From positions 186,001-250,000 of the forward strand of contig JACRJB010000025.1 of assembly GCA_016215605.1 (NCBI GenBank): a DNA stretch of 64,000 nt, in the 5' to 3' direction. How positions within the stretch are numbered: the stretch's first letter is position 1; every line of letters starts with the position of its first letter. Below the pieces are notes generated by a model, which saw only the letters and a program-made list of their open reading frames with translations, was not told the DNA's origin and ran no database searches. This stretch comes from Rhodopseudomonas palustris (GTDB taxonomy: Bacteria > Pseudomonadota > Alphaproteobacteria > Rhizobiales > Xanthobacteraceae). This document shows, piece after piece, positions 5,012-36,293 of this stretch. The position numbers and the translations under genes are program-made.

Positions 5012-5026
5012 GAACACATACTGAAC
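5012..5026. promoter_or_regulatory. LexA operator (SOS box) of lexA
   Basis: GAAC-ACATACT-GAAC is a perfect GAAC-N7-GAAC, the reverse complement of the alphaproteobacterial SOS consensus GTTC-N7-GTTC. It ends one base before a good -10 hexamer TATAGT (5028-5033), so bound LexA would cover the promoter. The lexA start is 131 bases downstream, consistent with autoregulation. Confidence 0.88.
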
Positions 5027-5157
5027 ATATAGTGTCCGTTCATGATTTGTTTCGAGTCATCGCGCTTCGCCTGATCAATCACCGAGCGATGTTCACGGCG
5101 CGATGAACGGATGGCGCGACGAGACGGCGATCGTCGCCAGACTGGGGAATGGTCGAG

Positions 5158-5868
5158 ATGCTGACGCGCAAGCAATTTGAGCTTCTGAAGTTCATCAACG
5201 AGCGGCTGAAGGAAGCCGGCGTTCCCCCATCGTTCGACGAGATGAAGGACGCGCTGGACCTGCGCTCGAAGTCGGGCATTCACCGTCTGATAACGGCGCT
5301 GGAAGAGCGCGGTTTCATCCGCCGCCTGCCCAATCGCGCCCGCGCCATCGAGGTGATCAAGCTGCCCGATCTCGGCGGCAACAGCGGCGGCGGCCGCCGC
5401 GGCTTCACCCCGAGCGTGATCGAAGGCAATCTCGGCAAGGTCCGCCCGCCGAGCCCGCAACACGCCGACGACGATTCCGACCGCAGCGTCGTCGCCGTGC
5501 CGGTGATGGGCCGGATCGCCGCCGGTACGCCGATCGAAGCGCTGCAGACCCGAAGCCACACCATCAGCGTGCCGCCGGACATGCTCGGCTCCGGCGAACA
5601 TTACGCGCTCGAAGTGCGCGGCGATTCGATGATGGATGCCGGCATTCTCGACGGCGACATGGCGCTGATCCAGCGCAACGAAAGCGCCGAGACCGGCGAC
5701 ATCGTGGTGGCGCTGATCGACGAGGAGGAAGCCACGCTGAAGCGCTTCCGCCGCCGCGGCGCCTCGATCGCGCTGGAGCCCGCCAATTCCGCCTATGAGG
5801 TCCGCATCCTGCCGCCGAACCGGGTGCGGATTCAGGGCAAGCTGATCGGGCTGTACCGCAAGTACTGA
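5158..5868 (+). CDS. lexA: LexA repressor
   Basis: A 236-residue SOS repressor. The N-terminal winged helix-turn-helix ([16 protein letters not shown], then the recognition region around [17 protein letters not shown]) is followed by a long linker typical of alphaproteobacteria. The C-terminal S24 autoprotease domain has the Ala-Gly cleavage site in GRIAAGTP (about residue 121), the nucleophile Ser in RGDSMMD (about residue 155) and the general-base Lys in ATLKRF (about residue 193). The ATG at 5158 is chosen because the family begins MLTRKQ; a second ATG lies three codons earlier. It is autoregulated through the SOS box at 5012-5026. Confidence 0.97.
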
Positions 5869-32054: not shown

Positions 32055-35000
32055 TCAGAGCGTCTCGACCAGCTCCACCCCGGACACCGCCTTGATGGCT
32101 CCGGCGATCTGCGGCGAGACCTGGAACCGGCCCGGCAGTTCGAATTCGACCTCGGTCTGCGGATCGAGCCGCAGCACCAGCGCGATGTTGCCGCCGGCGA
32201 CTTTCGAATCCGGCGGCTGCAGCCGCTTGGTGATCGACTCCAGCGGCTTGGTATCGCGCAGGAAGATCCGCAGGCCCTTCTGCGTCTTGGCAGCGGCGGC
32301 ATCGAGCGGTTCGGCGTGCAGCACGCGGGCGCGAACGTCCTCGCCCTGCAGTTCGGCGCCGAGCTGCAGCAGCACCGCGGCGCCCGGCTCCAGCACGTCG
32401 CGATATTGCGCCAACCCCTCGGAGAACAGCACCGCCTCGAAATGCCCGGTCGGGTCCGACAGGCCCATAATGCCCATCTTGTTGCCGGTCTTGGTGCGCC
32501 GCTCCATCCGCGACACCACGGTGGCGGCGACCTTGCCGGCGGTCGCGCCGGATTTCACCGCCTTGCAGAAATCCGCCCAGGACTGCACCCGCAGCCGCTT
32601 CAGCGCGGTGGCGTAGTCGTCGAGCGGGTGGCCGGACAGGAAGAAGCCGATCGCATCGTATTCACGGCGCAGCCGCTCCGCCGGCAGCCACGGCTCGATC
32701 TGCGGCAGCACGATCGACGGCGCGTCCGGCAGACTGCCGAACATGTCGTTCTGGCCGCTGGTGGCGGCCTCGTGGCTGCGCTGGCAGGCGGCGATGATCG
32801 CATCGGCACCGGCAAAGACTGCGGCGCGGTTTGGGTTGAGACAATCGAACGCGCCGGCGGCGGCGAGACATTCGATCACCCGCTTGTTGATCGCGCGCGG
32901 ATTGACCCGCGCGGCGAAGTCGGCGAGCGAGGCGAACGGCTTGTCGCCGCGCGCGTCGACGATCATCTGTACCGCGTGCAGGCCGACGCCCTTCAGGCCG
33001 GCGAGCGCGTAGTAGATGGTGTTGTCGCCGACCTCGAAGGTCGGACCGGAGCGGTTGACCGACGGCGGCTCGACCTTGATGCCGAGCCTCTGCGACTCGG
33101 CGCGGAATTCCGAAAGTTTGTCGGTGTTGTTGAGATCGAGCGTCATCGACGCGGCGATGAACTCGACCGGATAATGCGCCTTCATGTAGGCGGTGTGGTA
33201 CGACACCAGCGCGTAGGCGGCGGCGTGGCTCTTGTTGAAGCCATAGTCGGCGAACTTCGCCAAGAGATCGAAGATGGTGTCGGCGGAGTCCTTCGGCACG
33301 CCGTTCTTGGTCGCGCCCTCGACGAAGATCGCGCGCTGCTTCTCCATCTCGGCGCGGATCTTCTTGCCCATCGCGCGGCGCAGCAGGTCGGCTTCGCCGA
33401 GCGAATAGCCGGCCATCACCTGGGCGATCTGCATCACCTGTTCCTGGTAGATGATGACGCCGAAGGTCTCCTTCAGGATCGGCTCCAGCATCGGATGGAG
33501 ATATTCCGGCTCCTCGTCGCCGTGCTTGCGGGCGCAATAGGTCGGGATGTTAGCCATCGGGCCCGGGCGATACAGCGCGACCAGCGCGATGATGTCCTCG
33601 AACCGGTCGGGCCGCATGTCGACCAGCGCACGGCGCATGCCCTGACTTTCAACCTGGAACACGCCGACCACATCGCCGCGCGCCAGCATCTGATAGCTCG
33701 GCGCGTCGTCGATCGGCAGCGTCGGCAGGTCGACCGCGATGTCGCGCTGCTTCAAGAGCTTCACCGCGACGTCGAGCACCGTCAGCGTCTTCAGGCCGAG
33801 GAAGTCGAACTTCACCAGGCCCGCCGGCTCGACCCATTTCATGTTGAACTGGGTGACCGGCATGTCGGATTTCGGATCGCGATACATCGGCACCAGATCG
33901 CTCAGCGGCCGATCGCCGATCACGATGCCGGCGGCGTGCGTCGAGGCGTGCCGGGTCAGGCCCTCGAGCTTCTGCGCGATGTCGAAGGCGCGCGCCACCA
34001 CCGGGTCCTCGTCGCGAAACGCCTGCAGCTTCGGCTCGCTTTCGATCGCCTGCTTCAGCGACACCGGCGCGGCCGGATTCTGCGGCACCAGCTTGGTCAG
34101 CTTGTCGACCTGCCCGTACGGCATCTGCAGCACGCGGCCGACGTCGCGCAGCACGCCGCGCGCCTGCAGCGTTCCGAAGGTGATGATCTGCGCGACCTGG
34201 TCGCGGCCGTAGCGCTGCTGGACGTATTCGATCACTTCGCCGCGGCGGTCCTGGCAGAAGTCGATGTCGAAGTCCGGCATCGAGACGCGCTCGGGATTGA
34301 GGAAGCGCTCGAACAGCAGGCCGAACTGGATCGGATCGAGGTCGGTGATGGTCAGCGAATACGCCACCAGCGAGCCGGCGCCGGAGCCACGGCCCGGCCC
34401 GACCGGAATGCCGTGCGCCTTCGCCCATTTGATGAAGTCCGACACGATCAGGAAGTAGCCGGCGTATTTCATCCGGGTGATGACGTCGAGTTCGAAGGCC
34501 AGCCGCTTGTGATAGTCCTCCTCGGTCATGCCCTGCGACAGGCCGTGGACGCGCAGCCGCATCTCCAGCCCCTGCTCGGCCTGGCGCCGCAATTCGGCGG
34601 CTTCGGCGGCGGCCGCCTCCTCGGCGTCGCTGACGCCGGCGCCGACGGTGAACAGCGGCAGGATCGGCTTGCGGGTCAGCGGCCGGTAGGCGCAGCGCTG
34701 CGCGATCTCGACGGTGGAGGCCAGCGCCTCCGGCAGGTCGGCGAACAGCACCGCCATTTCGGCGCGGGTCTTGAAACGGTGGTCGGGGGTGAGCTGGACG
34801 CGATCGGTCTCGGCGATCAGCTTGCCGGAGGCGATGCACAAGAGCGCATCGTGCGCCTCGAAATCGTCGGCGGTGGCGAAATGCGGCTCGTTGGTCGCGA
34901 CCAGCGGCAGCCCCATGTCGTAGGCGACGTCGATCAGGCCGGCTTCCGCGCGCCGCTCGAAATCGGTGTTGTGACGCTGCAGCTCGACATAGAGCCGATC

Positions 35001-35510
35001 GCCGAACGCCTGCGCCAGCCGCTCGCAGCGCAGCCGGGCCAGCGCCGGATCGGTCAGCATCGCCAGCGAGATCGGCCCGTCCGGTCCGCCGGTCAGCGCG
35101 ATCACGTCCTCGGTCTCGCCGTCGAGCCAGTCGAATTTGATGTGCGGCGCCTGGTTCACCGGCGTCTCCAGGAACGCCCGCGAATTCAGCCGCATCAGGC
35201 TGCGATAGCCGCGCTCGCGCGTCGCCAGCAGCACGATCCGCGACGGCGCCGCCACCGCCGTGTTGCGCGAGGTCGGGTCCTGGTCGCCGAAATCGATCCC
35301 CAGTTCGAGGCCGACGATCGGCTGGATGCCGCTGCCGGCGAGCTTGTCGGAGAATTCCAGCGCGCCGAACATGTTGTCGGTGTCGGTCAGCGCCAGCGCC
35401 GGCTGGTGGTCCGCCTTCGCCAGCTCGGCGAGCTTGGCGATCTTCATCGACCCCTTCAGCAGCGAATACGCCGAATGAACGTGCAGATGGACGAATCCGG
35501 GTTGGCTCAT
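32055..35510 (-). CDS. dnaE: DNA polymerase III subunit alpha (replicative)
   Basis: An 1151-residue replicative polymerase of the DnaE1 type. The N-terminal PHP domain starts FVHLHVHSAYSLLKGSM (residues 7-23). The catalytic aspartates are in MPDFDIDFCQDRRGEV (about residue 410). The fingers domain with YRPGPMANIP, the helix-hairpin-helix region, and the C-terminal OB fold with beta-binding region are full length. The ATG at 35510 matches the family start; an in-frame extension to 35624 is not conserved. A 182-base leader separates it from the SOS-controlled microprotein gene, so read-through from that promoter could also raise dnaE. Confidence 0.97.
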   Translation of the reverse strand: MSQPGFVHLHVHSAYSLLKGSMKIAKLAELAKADHQPALALTDTDNMFGALEFSDKLAGSGIQPIVGLELGIDFGDQDPTSRNTAVAAPSRIVLLATRERGYRSLMRLNSRAFLETPVNQAPHIKFDWLDGETEDVIALTGGPDGPISLAMLTDPALARLRCERLAQAFGDRLYVELQRHNTDFERRAEAGLIDVAYDMGLPLVATNEPHFATADDFEAHDALLCIASGKLIAETDRVQLTPDHRFKTRAEMAVLFADLPEALASTVEIAQRCAYRPLTRKPILPLFTVGAGVSDAEEAAAAEAAELRRQAEQGLEMRLRVHGLSQGMTEEDYHKRLAFELDVITRMKYAGYFLIVSDFIKWAKAHGIPVGPGRGSGAGSLVAYSLTITDLDPIQFGLLFERFLNPERVSMPDFDIDFCQDRRGEVIEYVQQRYGRDQVAQIITFGTLQARGVLRDVGRVLQMPYGQVDKLTKLVPQNPAAPVSLKQAIESEPKLQAFRDEDPVVARAFDIAQKLEGLTRHASTHAAGIVIGDRPLSDLVPMYRDPKSDMPVTQFNMKWVEPAGLVKFDFLGLKTLTVLDVAVKLLKQRDIAVDLPTLPIDDAPSYQMLARGDVVGVFQVESQGMRRALVDMRPDRFEDIIALVALYRPGPMANIPTYCARKHGDEEPEYLHPMLEPILKETFGVIIYQEQVMQIAQVMAGYSLGEADLLRRAMGKKIRAEMEKQRAIFVEGATKNGVPKDSADTIFDLLAKFADYGFNKSHAAAYALVSYHTAYMKAHYPVEFIAASMTLDLNNTDKLSEFRAESQRLGIKVEPPSVNRSGPTFEVGDNTIYYALAGLKGVGLHAVQMIVDARGDKPFASLADFAARVNPRAINKRVIECLAAAGAFDCLNPNRAAVFAGADAIIAACQRSHEAATSGQNDMFGSLPDAPSIVLPQIEPWLPAERLRREYDAIGFFLSGHPLDDYATALKRLRVQSWADFCKAVKSGATAGKVAATVVSRMERRTKTGNKMGIMGLSDPTGHFEAVLFSEGLAQYRDVLEPGAAVLLQLGAELQGEDVRARVLHAEPLDAAAAKTQKGLRIFLRDTKPLESITKRLQPPDSKVAGGNIALVLRLDPQTEVEFELPGRFQVSPQIAGAIKAVSGVELVETL

Positions 35511-35692
35511 CGACGTCGCGGCTCTCGATCGGGCGTGGGGCAGATTGCGGTGAAGGTGCTCGGCCGGCGCGCGCTGCGCAGCCGACTCGGCCGGAATGGT
35601 GGTCCGCCGGGCACCGCCGCGCAAGGCGGCCGCGCGACCTTATCCCCGCTGTCTGCGCCGCGCCGGCTGCAACCGGCGCCGCCCTGCCCGGC

Positions 35693-35791
35693 TCAGAGCT
35701 GCGGCAGCACCTGGGCCCACACCGCCACCATGCCGATGAACAGCGCAATCGACGTCAACGCCGCAGCTTCCTGGATGAAGACCTTCAACAT
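35693..35791 (-). CDS. 32-aa SOS-regulated membrane microprotein, SidA-like candidate
   Basis: A 32-codon gene too short for most gene finders. It reads MLKVFIQEAA, then a hydrophobic helix at about residues 9-29 (ALTSIALFIGMVAVWAQVL), ending PQL. A ribosome-binding motif GGGAG lies 7 bases upstream of the ATG. Two perfect LexA sites at 35812-35826 and 35830-35844 overlap the promoter 21-53 bases upstream. Caulobacter SidA is a LexA-repressed inner-membrane peptide of about 29 residues that blocks division through the FtsW/FtsN machinery. Length, single membrane helix, SOS control and position beside dnaE suggest a functional counterpart. Homology is inferred, not demonstrated. Confidence 0.75.
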   Translation of the reverse strand: MLKVFIQEAAALTSIALFIGMVAVWAQVLPQL

Positions 35792-35811
35792 CGTCCGCTC
35801 CCTGACCACGT

Positions 35812-35826
35812 GAACATACGCAGAAC
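35812..35826. promoter_or_regulatory. LexA operator 1 of the microprotein gene
   Basis: GAAC-ATACGCA-GAAC, a perfect GAAC-N7-GAAC site (GTTC-N7-GTTC on the minus strand). It covers the probable -10 region on the minus strand, 21 bases before the microprotein ATG. Confidence 0.85.
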
Positions 35827-35829
35827 ATT

Positions 35830-35844
35830 GTTCTCATTTTGTTC
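35830..35844. promoter_or_regulatory. LexA operator 2 of the microprotein gene
   Basis: GTTC-TCATTTT-GTTC is a second perfect site in opposite orientation, three bases from operator 1 (18 bases start to start). It fills the spacer below the -35 hexamer. Paired perfect sites imply tight repression and possibly cooperative LexA binding. Confidence 0.85.
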
Positions 35845-35847
35845 TAG

Positions 35848-35853
35848 AGTCAA
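35848..35853 (-). promoter_or_regulatory. -35 hexamer of the SOS promoter
   Basis: TTGACT on the minus strand, 5 of 6 to consensus. The matching -10 (CAATGT or AATGTT near 35824-35830) is weak and lies within the LexA operators. Confidence 0.45.
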
Positions 35854-36038
35854 GGTAGCGGAGTCGGGGCGAACCGGAAGCGTTAACGAACCGTCTCTAT
35901 CCCCGTTGTTCGCGGCGGACTATTCGGCCCGCCAAGGCGTTGATGTACAAGGACCGCGGACGCACGGGATGCGCGTTCTGCGGTCGAGTCGGCGCTCGAC
36001 CTCGGCCCGATCGGGTTTGTCACCTCGCGGAGATTCGG

Positions 36039-36293
36039 ATGCGCGTTTCATCTCTCGTTCTGCTGGCTGCCACGGCCTTTCCGCTCGCTTTGCCCGCGGC
36101 GGCCGCGGTGCAGGCGCCTTACGACAACTATCCGGTCTGCCTGCAGGTCTACGGCCCGGTGCGGTTCATCGAATGCCGCTACGTTTCGATCGAGCAATGC
36201 CGGCCCGCCGCGCAGGGCATCGCCGGGCAATGCGTCACCAATCCGTGGTATCAACCGCCTGCGGGGCCGGCGCAGCGCCGCCGCGGGCGCTGA
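36039..36293 (+). CDS. DUF3551 family small secreted protein (copy 1)
   Basis: An 84-residue protein with a signal peptide (MRVSSLVLLAATAFPLALPA) and a mature part carrying the DUF3551 pattern: YPVCLQVYG, FIECRYVSIEQC, a further Cys, then CVTNPWY. Four cysteines are placed for two disulfides. Function is unknown; the family is abundant in Bradyrhizobiaceae. The ATG at 36039 is chosen for the signal peptide, although an upstream in-frame ATG at 35940 exists. It is the first of two tandem paralogues. Confidence 0.83.
   Translation: MRVSSLVLLAATAFPLALPAAAAVQAPYDNYPVCLQVYGPVRFIECRYVSIEQCRPAAQGIAGQCVTNPWYQPPAGPAQRRRGR

Follow-up and report, generated by a model that had tools for sequence, protein, structure and literature searches.

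How rhizobial-type Alphaproteobacteria halt division after DNA damage is a question on which a locus of Rhodopseudomonas palustris bears. In the window analysed here (the whole stretch of 64,000 nucleotides), two LexA boxes are situated upstream of dnaE, and between the boxes and dnaE lies an open reading frame (ORF) of 32 codons. A sequence-only reading of this DNA took the ORF for an SOS-controlled membrane microprotein and for the counterpart of the division inhibitor SidA of Caulobacter. The analysis described below leads to the same view: the conserved LexA-linked microprotein is very probably a division inhibitor of the SidA type. The full reading, in which the ORF is a SidA homologue acting as a LexA-controlled SOS division inhibitor at the septal synthase, is given a probability of about 0.8.

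The reading frame and its promoter

The coding sequence of the predicted SidA-like membrane microprotein is located on the minus strand at 35693..35791 (codons 35696-35791, stop 35693-35695), and translation of 35696-35791 gives a protein of 32 aa, MLKVFIQEAAALTSIALFIGMVAVWAQVLPQL. The motif GGGAG, read from the sequence as a ribosome-binding motif, is found on the same strand at 35798..35802, 6 nt 5' of the ATG, and a GGAG within 22 nt of the ATG was counted by eye in 36 of 38 same-family loci. Upstream of this motif are the two LexA boxes, a proximal one at 35812..35826 on the minus strand (GAACATACGCAGAAC; coding strand GTTCTGCGTATGTTC), which ends 20 nt before the ATG, and a distal one at 35830..35844, matched by pattern on the plus strand (GTTCTCATTTTGTTC; coding strand GAACAAAATGAGAAC). 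Both are perfect GTTCN7GTTC sites on one or the other strand, spaced by 3 bases. The frame with its ribosome-binding motif and the two perfect LexA sites three bases apart had been claimed beforehand, and all were found in place. A TTGACT stretch just 5' of the boxes (35848..35853, minus), picked by eye, may serve as -35 hexamer, and TTGAC-like stretches could also be seen by eye in several same-family promoters. A generic promoter and terminator scan of the locus found neither, including no terminator between the ORF and dnaE.

The next gene downstream, about 180 bp away on the same strand, is dnaE, encoding the DNA polymerase III alpha subunit (32055..35510, minus, ATG at 35510; NF004226, TIGR00594); a second DnaE-type gene is present elsewhere in the genome. 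AlphaFold, run on the single sequence, predicted one helix over residues 2-31 with a mean pLDDT of 93.9. This agrees with the hydrophobic helix with a Trp near its end that was described in the sequence-only reading, and the residue in question, Trp25, is kept in 30 of 30 aligned family sequences. None of the Pfam and NCBIfam models matched the 32-aa peptide at E≤1.

Other features of the surroundings were noted as well. The gene lexA, encoding the repressor of the same regulon, is situated in the same window about 30 kb from the microprotein (5149..5868, plus), with a LexA box upstream at 5012-5026 and a second box at 5221-5235 inside its coding region, which may be due to chance. Divergent from the microprotein are two adjacent genes for small DUF3551 proteins (PF12071; 36039-36293 and 36321-36569), apparently a tandem duplication. 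The spacer between the ORF and dnaE contains a TTATCCCCGC stretch (35640-35649, plus) that looks like either a DnaA box or an element of a promoter, and similar TTATCCCC or TTTTCCCC stretches occur in several same-family spacers.

Conservation of the reading frame

By tblastn with the 32-aa peptide, a search that had been proposed as a check of conservation, 146 of 198 genomes of the same family (its own included) were matched at E≤4.4e-4. At E≤1 the number was 151 of 198, and the five matches at E 0.5-0.93 were counted as misses. The matches at E≤1 reach 38 of 47 genera, three of the 38 through weak matches alone. The 29 next best family sequences show 69-97% identity to the window peptide and align without gaps. 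When the 30-sequence family alignment was used as query, 14 genomes from other families of the order matched at E<1e-4, out of 297 searched. Across 38 family sequences, pN/pS was 0.21 in the frame of the ORF versus 1.26 and 3.7 in the shifted frames, and the entropy by codon position was 0.45/0.10/1.01, with variation mostly at third positions. Judged by this pattern of substitutions, the 32-codon ORF is a real, conserved gene under purifying selection. The sequence-only reading had named, as an outcome that would speak against it, operators kept in relatives without the frame; this is not what was found, since purifying selection acts on the frame, and frame and box tend to be present in the same loci.

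Association of the LexA boxes with the peptide

The GTTCN7GTTC pattern is common in the genome (148 occurrences, versus 54 for the reversed control), so that a single box carries little meaning and significance comes from conservation. The box pair was surveyed in the 16 of 30 same-family loci that could be viewed in gene orientation, the promoters of the 14 reversed loci being left out, and a GAACN7GAAC / GTTCN7GTTC pair was present in all 16, with a gap of 3 bp in 15 and of 1 bp in one.

A wider comparison took in the DNA upstream of dnaE from 91 genomes of the window's order (its own included) and from 87 of other orders of the class, 178 in all. These loci are part of the genomes in which dnaE was found (196 for the order, 227 for the class), and the class sample was made up of the 30 best matches and 60 larger genomes among the matches listed. 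An exact LexA box was located within 600 bp upstream in 74 of the 178 dnaE loci. With a leave-family-out profile (best hit 40-650 bp before dnaE, E<1), the peptide was found in 59 of the 91 order loci: box and peptide occurred together in 53, box only in 6, peptide only in 6 and neither in 26 (Fisher p=1.1e-11, a value that overstates independence as the loci are related). Five of the loci counted as box only (L199, L215, L240, L241, L244) hold a small or extended hydrophobic ORF by eye, and L201 does not. In L213 and L243 the peptide is present beyond the interval used for counting.

The absences were followed in the window's own family, where 47 genomes gave no tblastn match. Twenty of these were listed and 17 of the 20 yielded a dnaE match. 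In 16 of the 17 neither an exact box (up to 1000 bp upstream; 214 bp only in one) nor a profile match at E<1 was found, so the arrangement is not universal even among same-family dnaE loci. The remaining one, G053, carries the boxes and a diverged peptide (E 0.15). By this co-occurrence, the putative LexA operators and the ORF form one unit.

A first alternative, which we hold improbable, is that the operators induce dnaE in the SOS response and that the ORF either arose by chance or acts as a leader that tunes dnaE expression. It can point to dnaE being the next same-strand gene with no terminator detected in between, and to box-bearing loci in which the profile detected no peptide (6 of the 91). 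In C. crescentus, dnaE is listed among the reported SOS-regulated genes and was again identified in a comparative study of 2012 (PMC3323433). In the Caulobacteraceae loci described below, the peptide lies only about 33-68 bp before the start of the DnaE match, and read-through into dnaE is therefore plausible there. In other loci, too, dnaE may be transcribed together with the peptide. Selection at the amino acid level, however, argues against an incidental ORF or a leader. Two loci also speak against it: in L243 a reverse-strand Imm50 gene (PF15594, 32.7 bits, cut-off 27.1) is situated between peptide and dnaE, and in L241 boxes and peptide are inverted together, on the strand opposite to dnaE. 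Where the peptide is absent the boxes are usually absent too, and copies of the peptide occur far from dnaE. From box to ORF start the distance is short (median 33 nt, sd 19), whereas the dnaE match lies a median of 158 nt from the peptide (sd 66; n=52). This argument is weak, since in relative terms the two distances vary to a similar degree and closeness to a box was one of the grounds on which the peptides had been chosen.

Because LexA box and peptide co-occur across the 91 order loci, it is probably the peptide that the LexA operators serve, and not dnaE, although LexA control has been ascribed to the latter. This suggests that part of the SOS signal reported for C. crescentus dnaE belongs to the peptide. 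The sequence-only reading had seen replication (dnaE), DNA damage and division tied together at this locus. The link to damage is supported by the operators; the link to replication turned out weaker than claimed, because the operators follow the peptide more than they follow dnaE.

Relationship to SidA

SidA is an SOS-induced inner membrane protein of 29 aa that interacts with FtsW and, by two-hybrid, with FtsN (PMC4211646). It is encoded by CCNA_02004 (PMC10769358), and the dnaE gene of C. crescentus is CC1926 (PMC1839093). The sequence-only reading had suggested, as a point to be checked, that sidA also lies beside dnaE. A CtrA comparison (25 genomes, best 85% identity) pointed to no Caulobacteraceae genome; PopZ was then used, giving 80 loci, and 25 genomes were taken, belonging to Caulobacter, Phenylobacterium and one 'CAULO1'. 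A dnaE match was obtained in 24 of the 25, the exception being a C. vibrioides metagenome bin, and all 24 loci have an ORF of about 29 aa just before dnaE (29 aa in C. vibrioides OR37, for example, and up to 33 or more in a few others if an earlier start codon is taken). Exact LexA boxes are present in 14 of the 24, and every one of the 24 has two or more boxes when up to one mismatch is tolerated. All six Caulobacteraceae peptides scanned pass the model NF033228 ('cell division inhibitor SidA', cut-off 35 bits) with 35.3-72.7 bits, one of them barely at 35.3 bits. The suggestion was therefore correct for these relatives, and from their loci the adjacency of sidA and dnaE would follow for the type strain as well.

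The window peptide itself gave no match to NF033228 up to E 10 and does not belong to SidA as curated. Of the 24 sequences in alignment A2 that come from outside the Caulobacteraceae, a single one matches this model at E≤0.1, namely the L193 peptide from the window's own family (13.2 bits, E 0.067, below the cut-off). Searches of PHROGs and Pfam returned no convincing family for 28 A2 members (best E 0.0088 and 0.024).

Homology was assessed by profile. A profile of 41 peptides of the window's order, with no Caulobacteraceae among them, was compared with 111 loci, 24 from Caulobacteraceae and 87 others from the class, in the form of 5437 six-frame fragments. The 29 best hits all correspond to the same-strand peptide before dnaE, and the next hit has E 1.6. 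Twenty-four of the 29 are the Caulobacteraceae ORFs (E 4e-4 to 0.24) and the other five come from other families of the class. In all 24 Caulobacteraceae loci the top hit of this order-only profile was the SidA ORF, versus 0-19 of 24 for 30 column-shuffled control profiles of the same composition (19 once, otherwise at most 11), and the median top score was 14.1 bits versus 1.1-4.3 bits after shuffling. The likeness to SidA hence goes beyond hydrophobicity. The reverse search was weak. With the narrow Caulobacteraceae SidA profile, 42 of the 91 order loci gave their top hit in the upstream interval, a number that includes chance hits; the window locus reached 7.7 bits (E 0.7), and the highest score of all (10.5 bits) did not fall on the peptide. 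The window peptide is 28-34% identical to four Caulobacteraceae peptides, and it speaks against homology that a helix of 30 residues carries little information. In its predicted nature as a single-pass membrane protein of about 30 aa, its location directly upstream of dnaE and its putative LexA operators, the window protein agrees with a wider SidA-like family. By its profile likeness it is a remote homologue of SidA outside the family as NCBI curates it, so termed because NF033228 does not match it. The proposal of a SidA counterpart is in this way supported by homology, synteny and operators.

A second alternative, which we regard as quite improbable, would make the peptide a type I toxin like TisB or DinQ, induced in the SOS response and harmful to the membrane, and not a divisome inhibitor. 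A small hydrophobic peptide behind LexA boxes would suit such a toxin, and DinQ of E. coli is an SOS-regulated toxic single-transmembrane peptide (PMC3567139), but the homology and the common synteny with SidA argue against it. No Rfam family was found in the 801 bases around the ORF (35300-36100); this bears on described RNAs only, and an antisense RNA of an undescribed kind may be present.

Distribution and variants

In a search of the class with the window-family profile (289 genomes), nothing better than E 0.02 was found besides the own genome, and the wider family became visible only by the synteny route, with the DnaE N-terminus as query. Outside the order the distribution is patchy. An exact box is present in 15 of the 87 class loci and is accompanied by a small hydrophobic ORF in 11 of them; the profile finds 5 of the 87, four of them among the 11, which brings the loci with box and hydrophobic ORF or with a profile hit to 12 of 87. 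A phylum search with a broader profile (299 genomes) gave nothing better than E 0.021 outside the class, a result that does not prove absence. In plasmids, tblastn with the peptide gave only six weak matches, all from Paracoccus (E 0.5-2) and two of them inside cysW, and in phages it gave none.

Second copies distant from dnaE and without LexA boxes were observed in a few genomes. The copy at L431:6967-7053 (G140) has phage-type surroundings with an integrase, a CI-like repressor and a DNA methyltransferase, and so has the weakly scoring copy at L432:5582-5665 (G022; E 0.33), with a DNA methyltransferase, a repressor, a helicase loader and a helicase. These two may be phage-borne division inhibitors. 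More box-free second copies are L424 (G114) and L426 (G1000; weak, E 0.51), and the neighbourhood of the G114 copy (L433) is not prophage-like by eye. In family f11 (L208, L228, L240, L241) the protein is lengthened at its N-terminus to about 93-114 aa. Where exact boxes are present, in three of the f11 loci, the likely start codon is placed 16-24 nt past the LexA box, and the C-terminal part corresponds to the SidA-like helix. The L228 protein, the one f11 member scanned, had no Pfam match.

These observations can be brought together in a broader picture, to which we incline with some reserve. SidA would not be peculiar to Caulobacter but would be a checkpoint of division in the SOS response, old within the Alphaproteobacteria, linked to dnaE in most cases and left unannotated for its small size, and the LexA box credited to dnaE would be its operator. 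One family would have fused a longer N-terminal part to it, and prophages would have acquired copies without LexA boxes, with which to halt division of the host at a time of their own.

Proposed mode of action

From the gene, the selection on it, its coupling to the operators, the synteny and the SidA homology observed in this analysis, we infer the following course in vivo. As long as there is no damage, LexA bound to the paired operators would repress the promoter; upon DNA damage, RecA* would trigger LexA cleavage and the peptide would be made. It would enter the inner membrane as a single helix, probably with the N-terminus inside and the C-terminus outside, because the N-terminus is basic. 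There it would hold the FtsW/FtsI/FtsN septal synthase inactive, so that division would be delayed until repair is complete. For the window peptide, SOS control is backed by the operators and the membrane location by prediction, and the remaining steps would hold by homology. Of SidA itself it is established that it is under SOS control, is located in the membrane, contacts FtsW and FtsN and is suppressed by mutations in FtsW and FtsI (PMC4211646).

Residues A31, F145 and A246 of FtsW are named among the sites of SidA/DidA suppressors (PMC4211646), and the numbering of C. vibrioides OR37 FtsW gives the same three residues. The FtsW of the present genome has A, F and A at the aligned positions. 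Among seven genomes compared, A31 is kept in four, F145 in six and A246 in six, with G at A31 in C. segnis. The agreement says little because FtsW is conserved anyway.

Growth from one pole is found in many members of the window's order. A SidA homologue whose target has shifted in this lineage (e.g. to FtsN, to FtsI or to a protein of elongation or polar growth) would fit this common polar growth, the low identity to the Caulobacteraceae peptides, the differences in the Trp and the C-terminal end and the variable suppressor site A31, but we consider it very improbable in view of the A, F and A of FtsW here, though FtsW is generally conserved.

The presence of a homologue across much of the order makes it a direct candidate for post-damage division arrest in rhizobial-type Alphaproteobacteria, and suggests that the LexA operator credited to dnaE belongs to another gene. 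Its natural variants could be used to map how a helix of 30 residues turns off FtsW. In the accessible parts of the open literature, with the original SidA paper outside this scope, SidA is described only in Caulobacter and the present peptide nowhere; the string 'sida' in PMC9638019 refers to the Holm-Sidak test. The kind of protein is already known from SidA, and the interest lies in how widely it is spread.

Comparison with known division inhibitors

SulA of E. coli is a soluble protein, and an SOS-induced block of division is what the window peptide would have in common with it. SulA differs in its mode of action, as it disrupts FtsZ polymerisation (PMC4211646). Closer in kind are YneA, SosA and ChiZ, which are damage-induced small membrane proteins blocking late division, and low-confidence models put these three and SidA on TM7 of FtsW (PMC13396833). 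They come from other bacteria, however; ChiZ and YneA both contain a LysM domain (PMC13396833), and sidA, yneA and chiZ have been called unrelated genes (PMC4211646). DidA of Caulobacter, likewise a small membrane protein with a single helix, also inhibits division by way of the FtsW/I/N complex, but by its description it is set apart as a protein of 71 aa that is SOS-independent and controlled by DriD (PMC4211646). With its LexA boxes and its length of 32 aa, the window peptide does not fit the description of DidA.

The closest system is SidA of Caulobacter. With it the window protein shares a size of about 29-32 aa, one predicted transmembrane helix, LexA boxes, dnaE directly downstream and profile homology. 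It differs in giving no match to the curated SidA model, in its distance from the four Caulobacteraceae peptides compared, in lacking the FVWMM motif of Caulobacter and in its C-terminal end, which has VWAQ.
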